The notes beneath the pieces were generated by a model. It made no database searches and had not been told where the DNA came from. It saw nothing but the letters and a program-made list of their open reading frames with translations. Of a stretch of 64,000 bases of DNA, positions 23,182 through 32,336 are shown in pieces. Origin of the DNA: Chitinophaga sedimenti (GTDB taxonomy: Bacteria; Bacteroidota; Bacteroidia; Chitinophagales; Chitinophagaceae); the NCBI RefSeq assembly GCF_023156195.1, contig NZ_JAKUKA010000001.1, positions 1,426,001-1,490,000 of the forward strand. The letters run 5' to 3'. The position numbers and the translations under genes are program-made. Numbering within the stretch: position 1 is the stretch's first letter; every line of letters begins with the position of its first letter.

Positions 23182-24602
23182 ATGCAGTACGATGCTATTA
23201 TAGTAGGGGCAGGCCCCAATGGCCTGGCCGGCGCGATTACCCTGCAGCAGCAAGGCCTGCGTACGTTGTTGCTCGAAGCCAAACCGACCATCGGTGGCGG
23301 CATGCGCAGCGCGGAGCTCACGTTGCCCGGCTTCGTACACGACATTTGCTCCGCCGTACACCCACTCGGTGCAGGATCCCCGTTTTTCAGGCAGCTGGAT
23401 TTACAGGCCTTCGGACTTGAGTTCGTACATCCGCCGGTGTTAGCTGCCCATCCGCTGGACGATGGCAGCGCCGGTGCGCTTTATCGTTCTTTTGACTATA
23501 CCGCCGCGGCACTTGGCGCCGATGAGTCGGCCTATCGCAGCCTGTTGGGCGGCTTGTACCGCGACTGGCCGCAGATTGATAAGGATGTACTCGGGCCGCT
23601 GAGCCTGCCTTCGCATCCTTTGATGATGGCGAAGTTTGGGCTCACTGCTTTGCGCCGCGCCAGCGATATTGTAAAAAGGTTTAACACGCAGCAGGCCCGT
23701 GGTCTGTGGGCCGGTATCGCCGGCCACTCGATGCTGCCGCTGGATCATTATACCACCGCTGCAGCAGGTTGTGTGCTGATGTTAGCCGGTCATCATCACG
23801 GATGGCCGATCCCGAAAGGCGGCTCGCAAAGTATGGCAACGGCGCTGGCGGGCTTATACCAATCGTTGGGAGGCGTCATTCAAACGGATACTTATGTGAA
23901 AAGCCCGGACGAGTTGCCGGCAGCCAAGGCCGTACTGTTCGATTTGTCGCCGCAACAACTGGTCAGCATTGCGGGACAACAGTTCTCGTCTATCTACCTG
24001 AAGCAATTAAAAAGGTTCCGCTATGGCATGGGCGTGTTTAAAATAGACTGGGCGCTGGATGGCCCGGTGCCTTTTACCAACGAAGCCTGCCGCAATGCGG
24101 GCACGGTGCACCTCGGCAACACTTTCGAAGAAATTGCGCACGCCGAAAAGGCGGTCTGGAATGGCCAGCATCCGGAAAAGCCATTTGTATTGCTCGCGCA
24201 GCAAAGCCTGTTCGACCACAGCCGCGCCCCGGAAGGCAAACACACGGCCTGGGCGTATTGCCACGTGCCCAGCGGCGCAGAAAAGATATGACGGCAGCCA
24301 TCGAAGCGCAGGTAGAACGTTTTGCGCCCGGCTTCCGCGATCGTATTTTACAGCGCCATACGATGAATGCCCGCCAGATGGAGGCTTACAACCCCAACTA
24401 TGTAGGCGGTGATATCAACGGCGGTGTGCTTGATATTACACAACTTTTTACCCGGCCGGCGTTACGCCTGTCGCCCTACCGTACTTCCGCAAAAGGGATA
24501 TACCTCTGTTCCGCTTCCACGCCCCCGGGCGGCGGCGTGCATGGCCTCTGTGGCCATCATGCGGCCCAACGCGTGCTGAAGGATATTTTTAAATTTAACT
24601 AG
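23182..24602 (+). CDS. Phytoene-desaturase-like FAD oxidoreductase, frameshifted
   Basis: The N-terminus holds the FAD-binding Rossmann motif IIVGAGPNGLAGA, then LEAKPTIGGGMRSAEL. The C-terminal motif near PPGGGVHGLCGHHAA is typical of Crt-type carotenoid/retinoid oxidoreductases. The first frame ends near 24291. One A in the AAAA run at about 24284 restores the join (GAEKDMTAAIEAQVERF). The total length is about 473 residues. It likely oxidises a lipophilic substrate, which the sequence does not name. It begins 4 nt after the DoxX-like gene and ends 1 nt before GH43. Confidence 0.85.
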
Positions 24603-26572: not shown

Positions 26573-27721
26573 TTAAAAGGTGCCGGTGGCCCCGCCACCA
26601 ACGCCCGATCCGCCGCCGAATCCTTGCTGGTCCGGCGCCTGGCCCGGCTGCATAGTTTGCACGATGATCAGCGATTCGAGGTGCAGCTTTTCGGCCGCAT
26701 GCTTGTCGTCGTCTTCTTCCTTTGTAAAGCCATGTTTAGGCGTTTTAAGGTAGCGCATGCCCCACCAGGCAGTGCCTGCCAGCAACGCCCCGGCCAGTAT
26801 CAACTTACCTTCCAGCGCCATCAGGTGATGGTACATGTGTATCGTGTAACAGGCGGCGGCCACCAGCATCAGACCGGTAAGGAGCAGGGTGCGGTCTTTT
26901 CTTTTCAACCCGAAAAAGATATATACTAATGGCAATATAATCGTAGTGATCCAGAAGAACCAGGGTACGATATTATCCGGAAGTAAGGGATTGCCCATTA
27001 CTGCCGTTACTGCGAGCGTATAGTAATTGAAACATGCGTAGAAAGATAGCAGTGCACAAATCTCCAGCGCCGTCAGGCAATGGCGGTAATGCCGTGCGCC
27101 ATGCAGCGTGGCCAGTTTGCGGGCGCCAAAGTAAAAGGCTGCCGATACCATTGCCAGCGGAATGTAAGCATATAAACGCAGTACGGACGAAGGATCTGTT
27201 TGAAGGAAGATAAACGTCAGCAACGCAAAGTACGCGATGCCCGTCATGATCACGTCTGCATAACGCAACGCCAGCACCGTGGCGATTAACAAGAACGCGA
27301 CCGACACCCGTAGCGGATACTCAAACAGATCCTGGAAAGCAAGTCCCGTCAGCAAAAACGCGCCGGCCATCCACATCAGCGCGGTGTCCACACCCGATTT
27401 GTAGTGCTTTTTACCGCCGTGAATGAACAGTTCTGCCGCCACAATACACATAACGGTCAGGAACACACAAAAGCCGGTAACGCTATCCAGGCTATCTACC
27501 ACTCCCTATGAGCAGCAGCAGTCCGACGCCGGCCATTACAGCCACCACGGTCGCAATCAGCAGTCCTGCCCGTACAAAAATGTTCGGATGAAAAAATGCT
27601 TTCGGATAGGCCTCGCTGGCGGCTTTCATTTCGTCGGCCGTAATGAGGCCTTTTTATGGGCGGATTCCACCTCTTCGCGGAGGTAGGTCTGGTCGAGGGT
27701 TTCGGAATTATATGCGAGCAT
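26573..27721 (-). CDS. Multi-pass membrane protein, frameshifted
   Basis: The main frame (about 309 residues) contains about ten hydrophobic helices and ends in a charged cytoplasmic tail with a Gly-rich end (GFGGGSGVGGGATGTF). Upstream of it, a broken N-terminus continues to ATG 27721 as MLAYNSETLDQTYLREE, then GLITADEMKAASEAYPKAFF and a helix (AGLLIATVVAVMAGVGLLLL). Frameshifts lie near 27651 and 27500. The start overlaps the end of the upstream membrane protein gene by 14 nt, implying translational coupling. The two proteins look like partners. Function unknown. Confidence 0.7.
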
Positions 27722-28670
27722 CTTTTTTCAGGTTTTTGTACTGGTAGGTAAGGAAAACACTAATGCCGATGGCGGAGCACAGGAAGTAGAGCAGCATAAT
27801 GACCAGGTCAAAGTAATGGTAGTTGTTGAGCACCACGATGCTCAGGGAAATGTAGCTGTACAACACGCAAATCAGTATAAAATAAAAGGAATGTTCCTTA
27901 CGCGCCTGCCAAAGGAATAAGGTGGTAATGCCCGCTACCGGCAGTACCCACAAACTGTTTTCAAAATACAGTTGCGCGGCAATAAGTGCGATATATAAAA
28001 TATGCACGCCGAAGTTGCAGTAGGTGAAAAAGAAGTGCCGTTTAAGGTTGCGCAGCCGGCTGAGGTAGCCGCCGCCGATAAGGATCGCGCCGAGCAGGAT
28101 GCCGGTGAAAATCAGCCTGCTGTCGCCAAAGTCATTTTCGGAGAGTATGCCCGTTGGCGTTAGGGCAATGCCCATCCAGGCGGCAAGATTCGTAATAGCC
28201 AGGCTCAATACGCCCAGGTGATCAAAATAGTAAGCGCTGAAAAACAGGATGAGCATCGGAATGAAAGTACTCGCGCCGTAACCCTGACCAAATACCCCGT
28301 ATTGCGCCTGCAGGTAGGTGATAAATGATATGAGCGTAAGACAGCCGAGCAGCAGCACATAATCGAATACTGCATTTTCCGTAAGCACTTTATGCCAGGA
28401 AAACGGCGGCCGGTGCCGGAAACAGTATACAAAACAGCCGATACTGACCGCGGCGATCAGTAATATTACGGCCATATGGCCAATGGTGTCGAGGTTGCGG
28501 TAAATGGGTGCCGAGGCCACCGCTTAGCAGCAGTACCCCAGGTACAACAAGGTCTTTAATTCCCAATGCAGGGAAAACAAACGGCCGGCAGCAGCGGCTT
28601 TAACGCGGTCCAGCGAGGCGGCTGACAGGTGGCCTTCACGGTGCAGTTTTTCAAACAGTTTTTCGTCCAT
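27708..28670 (-). CDS. DUF2157-like membrane protein, frameshifted
   Basis: The N-terminus at ATG 28670 reads MDEKLFEKLHREGHLSAASL followed by the first helix (LLYLGVLLLSGGLG). One missing G near 28540 breaks it from the main frame (IYRNLDTIGHMAVILLIAAV), which holds about eight further helices. The small cytoplasmic N-terminal helix followed by a membrane bundle matches the DUF2157 pattern. It is upstream of, and overlapping with, the second membrane protein. Function unknown. Confidence 0.72.
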
Positions 28671-28709: not shown

Positions 28710-29604
28710 TTACAGCTGGTCCGTACCCGAACTGAATACGGTGAGCGCGCGGTGCATGATGTCTGCGTTCACGCGGTAAACTTTGCCCGGTATTCGCCGT
28801 CCAACTGGAAGTGCGCCTTTCTTTTCGTATGGATGGTGATGTGTTGTGCAGGAATGATTTCTGTTTTACGCGGATCGAAGGGGCGGTGACGGAACAGCAT
28901 TTTCAGGAGTTCGAGCACGGACAATTGCTTAATCAGCACCACTTCAAATATCCCGTCGCTTAAGTCGCCATCGGGATTAATAAAAGCGCCGGTACCATAT
29001 TGGCGGGCATTGCCGAACACGACCATAAACGCCTGTCGCTCCAGCTTTTCCTTTCCATTATCGATGGTAATATCCAGCAGTTGACGGTAGTACAGGGTTT
29101 TTAATGCTACCCTGGCATAGCCGATCTGCCCCCGGATGCCCGATTTCTCAAAGTATTTTACCATCAGGGCGTTCAGGCCGATATCGCCCAGGTGTACGCA
29201 GTACTGGTCGCGGTCTACCCGTACCACATCGATCTGTTGGGTATTTCTTTGCACAATCACCTCGAGCGCCTCCGGGAGGGTGAGGGGCAGCGATAACTCC
29301 CGGGCCATGCCGTTCGCCGAGCCTGCAGGCAGTATCCCCAGGGGAATGCCTGTATCCACCAGTACAGAAGCCACGGCGCGCACGGTGCCATCGCCCCCGA
29401 CGGCTACAACCCCGTCTGGCTGCAGCTCATGGACGGCCTGCTGCAGGGAAAGGCCCTTTTACGGGCGGTATGTATATTGAAGTAATGAATGTGGTAGGGC
29501 TTGTCCTGGAAAAAAGTATGGATCAAATTTTGCGGATCTTGTTTTCCGCGGCCCGATTTCGGGTTGATCACAAAAAGGAGTGTGCGAGTGCCGGAGCTTT
29601 CCAT
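28710..29604 (-). CDS. Diacylglycerol-kinase family lipid kinase, frameshifted
   Basis: The start MESSGTRTLLFVINPKSGRG holds the NPKSG motif, and VGGDGTVRAV is the diacylglycerol-kinase nucleotide-binding loop. PLGILPAGSANGMAREL and the C-terminal FNARQYGTGAF-like segment complete the YegS/DgkB pattern. The frame breaks near 29390 and near 28778, where one G restores GKVYRVNADIMHRALTVF to the TAA at 28710-28712. It would phosphorylate diacylglycerol or a related lipid alcohol at the membrane. It is transcribed divergently from an APP1-type phosphatase, with 15 nt between the start codons. Confidence 0.85.
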
Positions 29605-29619
29605 CTAGGTGTTAGTTGT

Positions 29620-30695
29620 ATGCAATTAGATAACGGAACAGAACATATCAAATTTAAAGCCGCAAATAAAACGTGGCGCGATCGCTGGCTGGGATGGTTA
29701 AAGCTCACCGGGAGGGTAACCGTACGTGTTTACCGCGGTTACGGCCGCGACGGGCAACTACAGCTCTTCGGCCATGTGCTCGAACTGGGTCCCATTCCCC
29801 CGAAACGTTATTCCCGCAACATTATCCGCAATTTTTTCGGGTTGATCCGTTTGTTTATCGTGCGGGCCAAACCCAATGCCCAGGTAACTCTCACCTGGCA
29901 GGGGAAAGTGATCAGGGCTACCACGGCGGCCGATGGCTTCTTCCACTTTCAATGGACGCCGGAGACGCCTACGGATGCCGGCTGGCATGAAGTGCGGGTA
30001 GATCATACTGCTTCCGCCGATGGCGCGGTGCTGGCCTCGGCGTCGGGGAGCATTTTCATTCCCCACCGCACACAATACGGCTGTATTTCCGACATCGACG
30101 ATACCTTCCTCATTTCTCATTCCTCTCGACTGGGCAAACGCCTGTTCGTATTGTTCACGCACAACGCCCGCACCCGCAAACCGTTCGACGGCGTGGTAGA
30201 GCACTACCGGATGCTGAGTTATGCAGGCAGCCACGAAGATACGCCCAACCCATTCTTTTATGTGAGCAGCAGCGAATGGAACCTGTTCGACTATATTACT
30301 GAATTTACCCGAACGCATAAGCTGCCGCATGGCGTGTTCCTGCTCAGCCAGATGAAACATTGGTACCAGCTGCTGAAAACCGGCCAGAACAAGCACGGCA
30401 CCAAGTTTACCCGTATCACCCGTATCCTCGAAAGTTATCCCAACATGCGCTTCGTGCTGCTGGGCGACGATAGCCAGGAAGACCCCAACATCTACGAAGC
30501 CGTCGTGAAACATTTCCGCAAACAGATCATCTGTGTATACCTGCGGCATGTCAGCAAAAGAATCACCACCATGTAATGGAAGTGGCTGATCGCATCGAAA
30601 CGGCCGGCGTACATTGTTGTTACTTCAAGCACAGCGAAGAAGCGATTGCCCATTCGTTACGCATTGGCCTGGTAGAAAAGCAGGTGAGTATTTAA
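29620..30695 (+). CDS. APP1-type phosphatidate phosphatase (DUF2183), frameshifted
   Basis: About 358 residues. The catalytic core reads SDIDDTFLISHS, the DxDxT motif of haloacid-dehalogenase-like phosphatidate phosphatases, followed by PFFYVSSSEWNLFDYI and RFVLLGDDSQEDP. The N-terminal region (from MQLDNGTEHIKFKAA) is a beta-sandwich. The start is ATG 29620, and the frame is open to 29470. One G near 30575 joins the tail MEVADRIETAGVHCCYFKH to the stop at 30693-30695. It would remove the phosphate from a phospholipid such as phosphatidate, the reverse of the adjacent lipid kinase. Confidence 0.88.
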
Positions 30696-31635: not shown

Positions 31636-32336
31636 TTACCGGCTTTTCCATTCATCAACAAATGATGAATAACTGTCGCTGATGGGTAATGCGATGCCCG
31701 AATCCAGTATAGCCTTGCGGTTGACGACTGATGTTACCCTCTGCAGCGGTACGATGTACGAGCGGTGGATCCGGCGGAACCGGGCCGGCGGGAGTTTGTC
31801 CAGCACCGCCTTTAATGTCATCAGGGTCATGACCGGCTTGCCCGTGTTGAGGTGGATGCGGATGTAGTCTTCCAGTCCCTCGATATAGGCGATATTGCGC
31901 AAATCGATTTTGACGATTTTGTATTCGGAGCGCACGAACAGGCTTTCTTCCTGGTCGGCATGCGTACCGGTTTTGTACTCGTAGTAAGTAACCGCCCGCT
32001 TCACCGCTTTGGAAAAACGTTCGTAGTCTACGGGCTTCAGCAGGTAGTCCATGGCCTCCAGCTCAAAACCTTCCACGGCGAACTTTTTATGCGCTGTAAT
32101 GAAAATGATGATGGGTTTGTGTTCCGGGAGCGCACAAGGTCCATGCCACTGATATCCGGCATATTAATATCAACAAAAAGCAGGTCGACGGGATTGTGCC
32201 GCAGGAACCCGGCGCCCGATACTGCATCCTCAAAGGTTTGCAGGAGGCGAAGGTCCGGCGACCGCGAAATGTATTCGCGGATCAATGCCAGCGAGAGTGG
32301 TTCATCGTCTATGGCGACACATTTCAACTGGGTCAT
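31636..32336 (-). CDS. LytTR-family response regulator, frameshifted
   Basis: A CheY-like receiver (KCVAIDDEPLSLALI; the phosphoacceptor Asp lies in LLFVDINMPDISG; Lys in LLKPVDYERF) is joined to a LytTR DNA-binding domain (VRSEYKIVKIDLRNIAYIEG and RRIHRSYIVPLQRV). One G near 32143 restores LVALPEHKPIIIFITAHKK. It starts 1 nt before the histidine-kinase stop, so it is its cognate output. LytTR proteins bind direct repeats. The target is not visible, though the downstream secreted gene is a candidate. Confidence 0.9.

Follow-up and report, generated by a model that had tools for sequence, protein, structure and literature searches.

A conserved pair of lipid kinase and APP1-type phosphatase genes in Bacteroidota, predicted to act in opposite directions on phosphatidate and diacylglycerol

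A back-to-back lipid kinase and phosphatase gene pair

We analysed a 64,000-nucleotide stretch of the Chitinophaga sedimenti genome (hereafter the window) in which a lipid kinase gene and an APP1-type phosphatase gene are arranged divergently around a very short gap (Table 1). The kinase is read from an ATG at 29604 on the minus strand to a TAA stop at 28712-28710, and this ATG is the earliest possible start because an in-frame TAG lies directly 5' of it. The phosphatase is read from an ATG at 29620 on the plus strand to a TAA at 30693-30695, its final part lying in another frame. Its frame is open 5' of 29620 and the list of open reading frames begins this ORF at 29470; we chose the ATG at 29620 because the two closest relatives begin at the aligned residue. 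These coordinates confirm the earlier note on this DNA, which had placed the genes on opposite strands with starts 15 nt apart, and both start codons are upheld.

Table 1 Features of the kinase/APP1 locus in window coordinates
Feature	Position	Strand	Remarks
YegS/DAGK-family lipid kinase gene	28710..29604	-	Has GGDGT and DGE motifs; broken by two frameshifts, with parts in three minus frames
Intergenic gap between both start codons	29605..29619		15 nt
APP1_cat (DUF2183, PF09949) phosphatase gene	29620..30695	+	Carries DIDDT (DxDxT); a single frameshift close to the C-terminus
TAAATTTG, candidate -7-like box of a kinase promoter	29649..29656	-	Inside APP1 codons 10-13; weak, suggestive only

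Both genes of the pair are interrupted, with three frameshifts in all, which the earlier note had read through. Searches by tblastn with proteins of three relatives spread the kinase over three minus frames and the phosphatase over two plus frames. In the closest relative, G288 (locus L040), the APP1 protein, 85% identical to that of the window over the main frame, is encoded in a single frame. Completeness of the source genome is estimated at 80.5%, and close to the pair a response regulator/LytTR gene is split into two ORFs (window 31636-32336). On these three grounds we read the frameshifts as sequence errors and not as signs of pseudogenes; the three in the pair are probably assembly errors, and the source assembly seems to carry many frameshifts. 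Elsewhere in the window, an FAD-dependent oxidoreductase gene (23182-24602) may be cut short. By eye, a frameshifted membrane-protein gene with the start MDEKLFEKLHREGHLS seems to lie just 3' of the kinase in the same orientation (27708-28669, minus), the main ORF of which had no Pfam match, and the kinase of L040 appears to change frame near its C-terminus.

The paired APP1 protein is a predicted phosphatidate phosphatase

The window phosphatase matches APP1_cat (PF09949) in Pfam with an E-value of 7.9e-43 (146.5 bits against a gathering cut-off of 27.1). Its SDIDDT motif, a DxDxT motif of the HAD type, is intact, and S-D-I-D-D-T is invariant in 26 sequences. The catalytic family PF09949 and the DxDxT motif are shared with the phosphatidate phosphatase App1 of yeast, which differs from the bacterial paired clade in being an actin-patch protein (reportedly so described by Chae 2012) and for which we know of no kinase partner gene. 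Yeast App1 and Pah1 are treated in PMC4130541 and PMC10797186.

Fold comparisons were made with a structure model of a relative, L142 (mean pLDDT 85.3), which shares 59% of its aligned residues with the window protein. The model aligns with the phosphatidate (PA)-bound C-terminal domain of Nir2 at a Z-score of 19.9 over 244 residues and 3.4 A, and Tetrahymena Pah2, a PA phosphatase of the lipin/Pah group, at Z 14.6-15.9 in both domains. Both matches run from residue 10 or 12 of the model to residue 329, spanning an Ig-like sheet and the HAD domain, and proteins alike in the HAD part alone reach Z 12.3 and below. Foldseek places the same two groups, Nir2 and lipin/Pah, first. The two-part Ig-like and HAD layout is thus common to the phosphatase model, the lipin/Pah enzymes and the LNS2 domain of Nir2, whereas the latter two are eukaryotic and only 10-16% identical to the bacterial phosphatase; a PDB sequence search with the APP1 protein of G288 gave no match at E up to 1. 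Judged by the modelled fold, the paired APP1 protein is likely to be a PA phosphatase.

The fold could be read in another way, with the phosphatase as a lipid-phosphate sensor or weak enzyme that regulates the kinase, as Nir2 LNS2 might, instead of opposing it. The top structural match is indeed a PA-binding LNS2 domain, and a domain of this fold can bind PA yet leave it intact. Non-catalytic LNS2 domains, however, have not kept the DxDxT and HAD residues, whereas in the APP1 proteins DxDxT and further HAD residues are invariant across aligned sets of 12 and 26 sequences, and we regard a sensor as very unlikely.

The kinase belongs to a group that accepts several lipids

In the window, the kinase fragment matches the Pfam families PF00781 and PF19279 (DAGK_cat and YegS_C) with 42.4 bits against a cut-off of 23.6 and 51.4 bits against 27, respectively. 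A whole-genome search also found a DAGK_cat match over the cut-off at this place, and GGDGT is read in the kinase frame. Against NCBIfam, the 204-aa frameshifted fragment taken alone scored below the cut-offs of all 11 matched models (YegS, PRK13337, MamU and others; best score 109.7 against 274 bits), and the kinase of a relative, G026, is akin to the YegS and DgkB structures. The window kinase has its family, the GGDGT motif and the C-terminal domain in common with YegS, DgkB and BmrU (PF00781 with YegS_C); unlike these members of the group, the paired kinase forms a clade of its own, apart from 26 other DAGK copies.

According to PMC10331486 and PMC9045371, the YegS/DAGK group also takes in phosphatidylglycerol, ceramide and dihydrosphingosine kinases. 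Because the group accepts several lipids, the substrate of the kinase is the weaker half of a reading in terms of PA and diacylglycerol (DAG), and lipids other than DAG are possible for the paired enzyme. One such case is a pair that acts on a sphingoid base or ceramide, in which the kinase would make dihydrosphingosine-1-phosphate or ceramide-1-phosphate and APP1 would dephosphorylate the product. Bacteroidota make sphingolipids, and a dihydrosphingosine kinase of P. gingivalis, PG1348/dhSphK1, has been described (PMC9045371 and PMC10191378); dhSphK1, YegS and CpgB belong to distinct clades whose activities overlap (PMC10331486), and the other DAGK copies in the same genomes could serve DAG recycling. 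The closest folds of the phosphatase, however, are enzymes and binders of PA, and we consider sphingolipid substrates unlikely.

The pair is conserved in one phosphatase clade across Bacteroidota

Conservation of the pair was surveyed within Bacteroidota, at the level of the genus (35 relatives besides the source genome), the order (a draw of 396 genomes) and the phylum (a draw of 395 genomes). APP1_cat occurs in 13 of the 35 genus relatives, and a divergent kinase adjoins it in 13/13. In the order draw, 105 APP1 places in 100 genomes exceed the cut-off; a kinase is divergently adjacent in 32 and no DAGK lies within 5 kb in 73. The phylum draw, with members of the order counted once, under the order, adds 51 genomes with 63 APP1 places, 34 of them paired (29 divergent and five tandem, each of the latter with APP1 first and the kinase second), 27 without a DAGK nearby and two with a convergent DAGK 4.0-4.3 kb off, which were not scored as pairs. 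These counts leave out APP1 rows below the cut-off (nine in the order and one in the phylum sample) as well as two fragmentary rows over the cut-off in the phylum sample (G586 C34 and the second place of G715 C96); with both included, and no DAGK on either, 34/65 places are paired. Some kinase rows, mostly weak and some on other contigs, were also left out; a check by eye found none of them closer than 5 kb to an APP1 place in the counts. Draft genomes of small contigs may conceal some pairs.

The earlier note had proposed conservation of the pair across Bacteroidota as a check, and conservation holds for one phosphatase clade while most APP1 genes of the order sample are unpaired, which shows that the APP1 family can do without the kinase. 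In a named collection, 78 of the best 80 of at least 564 relatives have the divergent kinase, and in the remaining two no more than 300 bases separate the start of the gene from a contig end; since these 80 are the best matches to an alignment of paired proteins, 78/80 is not the rate for the family. Paired loci among these best 80 include those of Chitinophaga (C. ginsengisoli DSM 18107 and C. eiseniae DSM 22224 among others), Pedobacter, Larkinella, Spirosoma, Hymenobacter, Runella and Halpernia. Among 26 of the 80 loci taken as genus representatives, the pair recurs in 26/26 and the next neighbour family in only 4/26, so that a larger conserved operon around the pair is ruled out.

Presence of APP1 goes with an additional kinase. 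A second DAGK copy is found in 13/13 genus genomes with APP1 and in 1/22 without it (Fisher p ~1e-8, a value that ignores shared ancestry), and with E up to 0.001 as the limit, 21 of the 22 genomes that lack APP1 contain just one DAGK gene. In the remaining one, G005, the extra DAGK sits on a long branch away from the paired clade. Five family members, L068-L072 (G191, G197, G232, G250 and G399), have a second, unpaired APP1 protein, which belongs to a separate clade and has a better Pfam score.

Paired copies share descent in the sampled trees, and the linkage withstood rearrangement

A tree of 97 APP1 proteins (63 divergent, five tandem and 29 hand-picked unpaired, two of the last with a DAGK 4 kb off) places the 29 unpaired rows on one side of a branch with 100/99 support, and the tandem label requires two changes. 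In a kinase tree of 72 rows (46 paired and 26 hand-picked unpaired, same-genome paralogues included), the 46 paired copies form one side of a 99/98 branch against the 26 unpaired. Long branches were flagged in the trees, among them L036, L100, L114, L035 and L099. For both proteins, the paired copies therefore descend together in the sampled trees.

The tandem pairs differ in layout. Counted from the last base of the APP1 stop codon, the kinase start codon in the five genomes is at -4, -4, -4, -1 and +2 nt, and four of the five pairs overlap by 1-4 nt, an organisation common among translationally coupled genes. Since such tandem pairs exist, the linkage of kinase and APP1 has outlived a change of arrangement.

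These data bear on whether the adjacency is simply an old, rarely broken inheritance of two unrelated household genes with no functional meaning. Linked genes can remain together by descent, and nearly all pairs are in one arrangement, the divergent one. Against this stand the absence of any other conserved neighbour around the pair, the persistence of the linkage in tandem and the single DAGK of nearly all APP1-less genus relatives. Moreover, of these 22 relatives the kinase tree took in G001, G002, G019 and G005, and their copies, including both of G005, fall outside the paired kinase clade. Inheritance without function is already disfavoured on this evidence, and we hold it to be highly improbable.

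Predicted action on phosphatidate and diacylglycerol

PA and DAG form a branch point of membrane lipid synthesis. The explanation that we favour, and consider probable, is that the pair is a self-contained Bacteroidota lipid kinase/phosphatase module in which APP1 dephosphorylates PA and the kinase rephosphorylates DAG, with expression of the two probably tied. The APP1-type enzyme, with the Ig-like and HAD fold of lipin/Pah and Nir2 LNS2, would take the phosphate off PA, or alternatively off a close lipid phosphate, at the membrane, leaving DAG in the case of PA. The paired YegS/DAGK-type kinase would restore the phosphate at the expense of ATP, and together the enzymes would determine the ratio of PA to DAG and allow DAG to be recycled. 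Opposite reactions on these lipids had been claimed in the earlier note; the phosphatase part now draws on the fold and the kinase part on family membership. Taken together, fold and family make opposite action on PA and DAG the most economical reading, and a likely one.

Opposed kinases and phosphatases acting on one lipid pair are a known idea in mammals, where DGKs and phosphatases cycle PA and DAG (PMC11555698). The mammalian case involves networks of many enzymes, whereas the bacterial case would be confined to one two-gene locus. The catalytic families themselves are known, and the new part would be a dedicated, isolated two-gene version in Bacteroidota. Among the matches listed in searches of the open-access literature, we found no paper that treats the kinase/APP1 pair and no study of the bacterial paired APP1 clade; the name DUF2183 occurs there in two papers, neither with a lipid subject by its title. 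Retention of the pair in many Bacteroidota suggests that the two enzymes serve as a dedicated on/off system for a membrane lipid. It gives the bacterial APP1/DUF2183 family a concrete partner and a hypothesis, and being isolated and conserved it offers a two-gene bacterial system for genetic testing of PA/DAG cycling.

The short gap and candidate promoter signals

Measured between first ATGs, the gap has a median of 53.5 nt in the 78 named relatives drawn from the best 80 of at least 564, overlaps counting as negative, and is 20 nt or less in 17/78. Thirty other divergent neighbours from these loci have a median of 234 nt, with 4/30 at 20 nt or less, a comparison that rests on crude start calls. 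In 59 of the 63 divergent loci a choice of starts exists that gives a gap of 13-92 nt; the exceptions are L054, where the genes overlap, and L050, L067 and L097, where the gap is longer. The gap in the window is at the short end, yet not unheard of.

Because the starts are back to back, expression of both genes would probably be tied, either reciprocally or in step, and each promoter would lie in or over the 5' end of the partner gene. The sequence TAAATTTG (Table 1) is a candidate -7-like box by the Bacteroidota -33/-7 consensus. TAnnTTTG matches at this place in both close relatives, L026 and L040, and an exact search for it across loci gave sparse matches. Scores against the same consensus, controlled with single-letter shuffles, exceeded the shuffles in the kinase direction for Chitinophaga (8.25 vs 6.99), the window set (8.17 vs 7.02) and Flavobacteria-like loci (8.73 vs 7.70), and were close to them for Pedobacter (7.55 vs 7.51) and Larkinella/Spirosoma (7.20 vs 7.21). 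In the APP1 direction one of the five groups scored clearly higher (Chitinophaga, 8.25 vs 7.36). Since the scored rows are related, this evidence is suggestive only. A sigma-54-like reading, GG-N10-GC within GGCCTTCTTTTTGC, was set aside; its -24 half is poor by the sigma-54 consensus.

The tandem genomes (n=5) have no divergent promoter in their arrangement. They point to co-expression rather than mutual exclusion, and speak for expression in step being no less important than exclusion.

An element frozen in the kinase codons of related loci

Within codons 10-30 of the kinase, the block GGCGGCAAAAAGAAGGCCGATCC (kinase sense) is nearly invariant at synonymous positions in L025, L024, L028 and nine other loci of the Chitinophaga group, the frozen part covering ~23 nt (GGC GGC AAA AAG AAG GCC GAT CC). 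Over the first 20 kinase codons from FVINP, the ratio of observed to expected synonymous change (O/E) in these 12 loci is 0.34, with 0/5000 column permutations as low, whereas the remainder of the gene varies freely (lowest O/E 0.85 in 222 other 20-codon segments). Diverse subsets of seven and five loci gave O/E values of 0.38 and 0.36 for the block. These figures are direct sequence evidence for an overlapping element in the kinase gene of the 12 loci, whatever its role.

The element is restricted in distribution. Pedobacter, Larkinella/Spirosoma and Flavobacteria-like loci have no such block, their O/E for the 49 codons at the start of the gene being 0.90-1.00; where it is lower in these three groups, the first 10 codons are mainly responsible, and the Flavobacteria-like kinases have an O/E of 0.94 with 188/5000 permutations as low. 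An unpaired-DAGK control likewise has no frozen block (O/E 0.97). Nor does the window's own subgroup carry the element. Five relatives on its side, the window being excluded for its frameshifts, gave 0.78 (78/5000 as low), and another segment of the same gene gave 0.70. A 20-nt core was sought with up to two mismatches in 12 genus genomes, six of them from the 12-locus group, and matched the kinase locus in 6/6 of the group genomes and 0/6 of the others, among them that of the window. Elsewhere in these 12 genomes it had no exact match and occurred once, at a two-mismatch site in G026; a reversed-pattern control had two matches. By this search the element looks local and unlike the operator of a regulon.

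The earlier note had argued that the promoters must overlap the coding sequences or be shared, which would allow mutual control. Overlap is plausible, given the -7-like box in the APP1 codons and the frozen element in the kinase codons of 12 relatives; mutual control of kinase and phosphatase is only suggestive. Tentatively, and with some doubt, we propose that the pair may be a PA/DAG switch module with kinase and lipin-like phosphatase clades of its own across Bacteroidota and with regulatory DNA inside its coding sequence. If this were true, the frozen element would fit a site that controls the phosphatase gene locally. Consensus structures from RNAalifold were weak whichever direction was read (-8.4 to -9.7 kcal/mol), and the stems differed between directions. 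Separately, a conserved leader, CAAAATMARCGCCT, stands directly before the APP1 ATG in L022-L025, L028-L030, L033, L039 and L041-L043; reversed, it holds a TTATTTTG-like box, a possible element of a kinase promoter.
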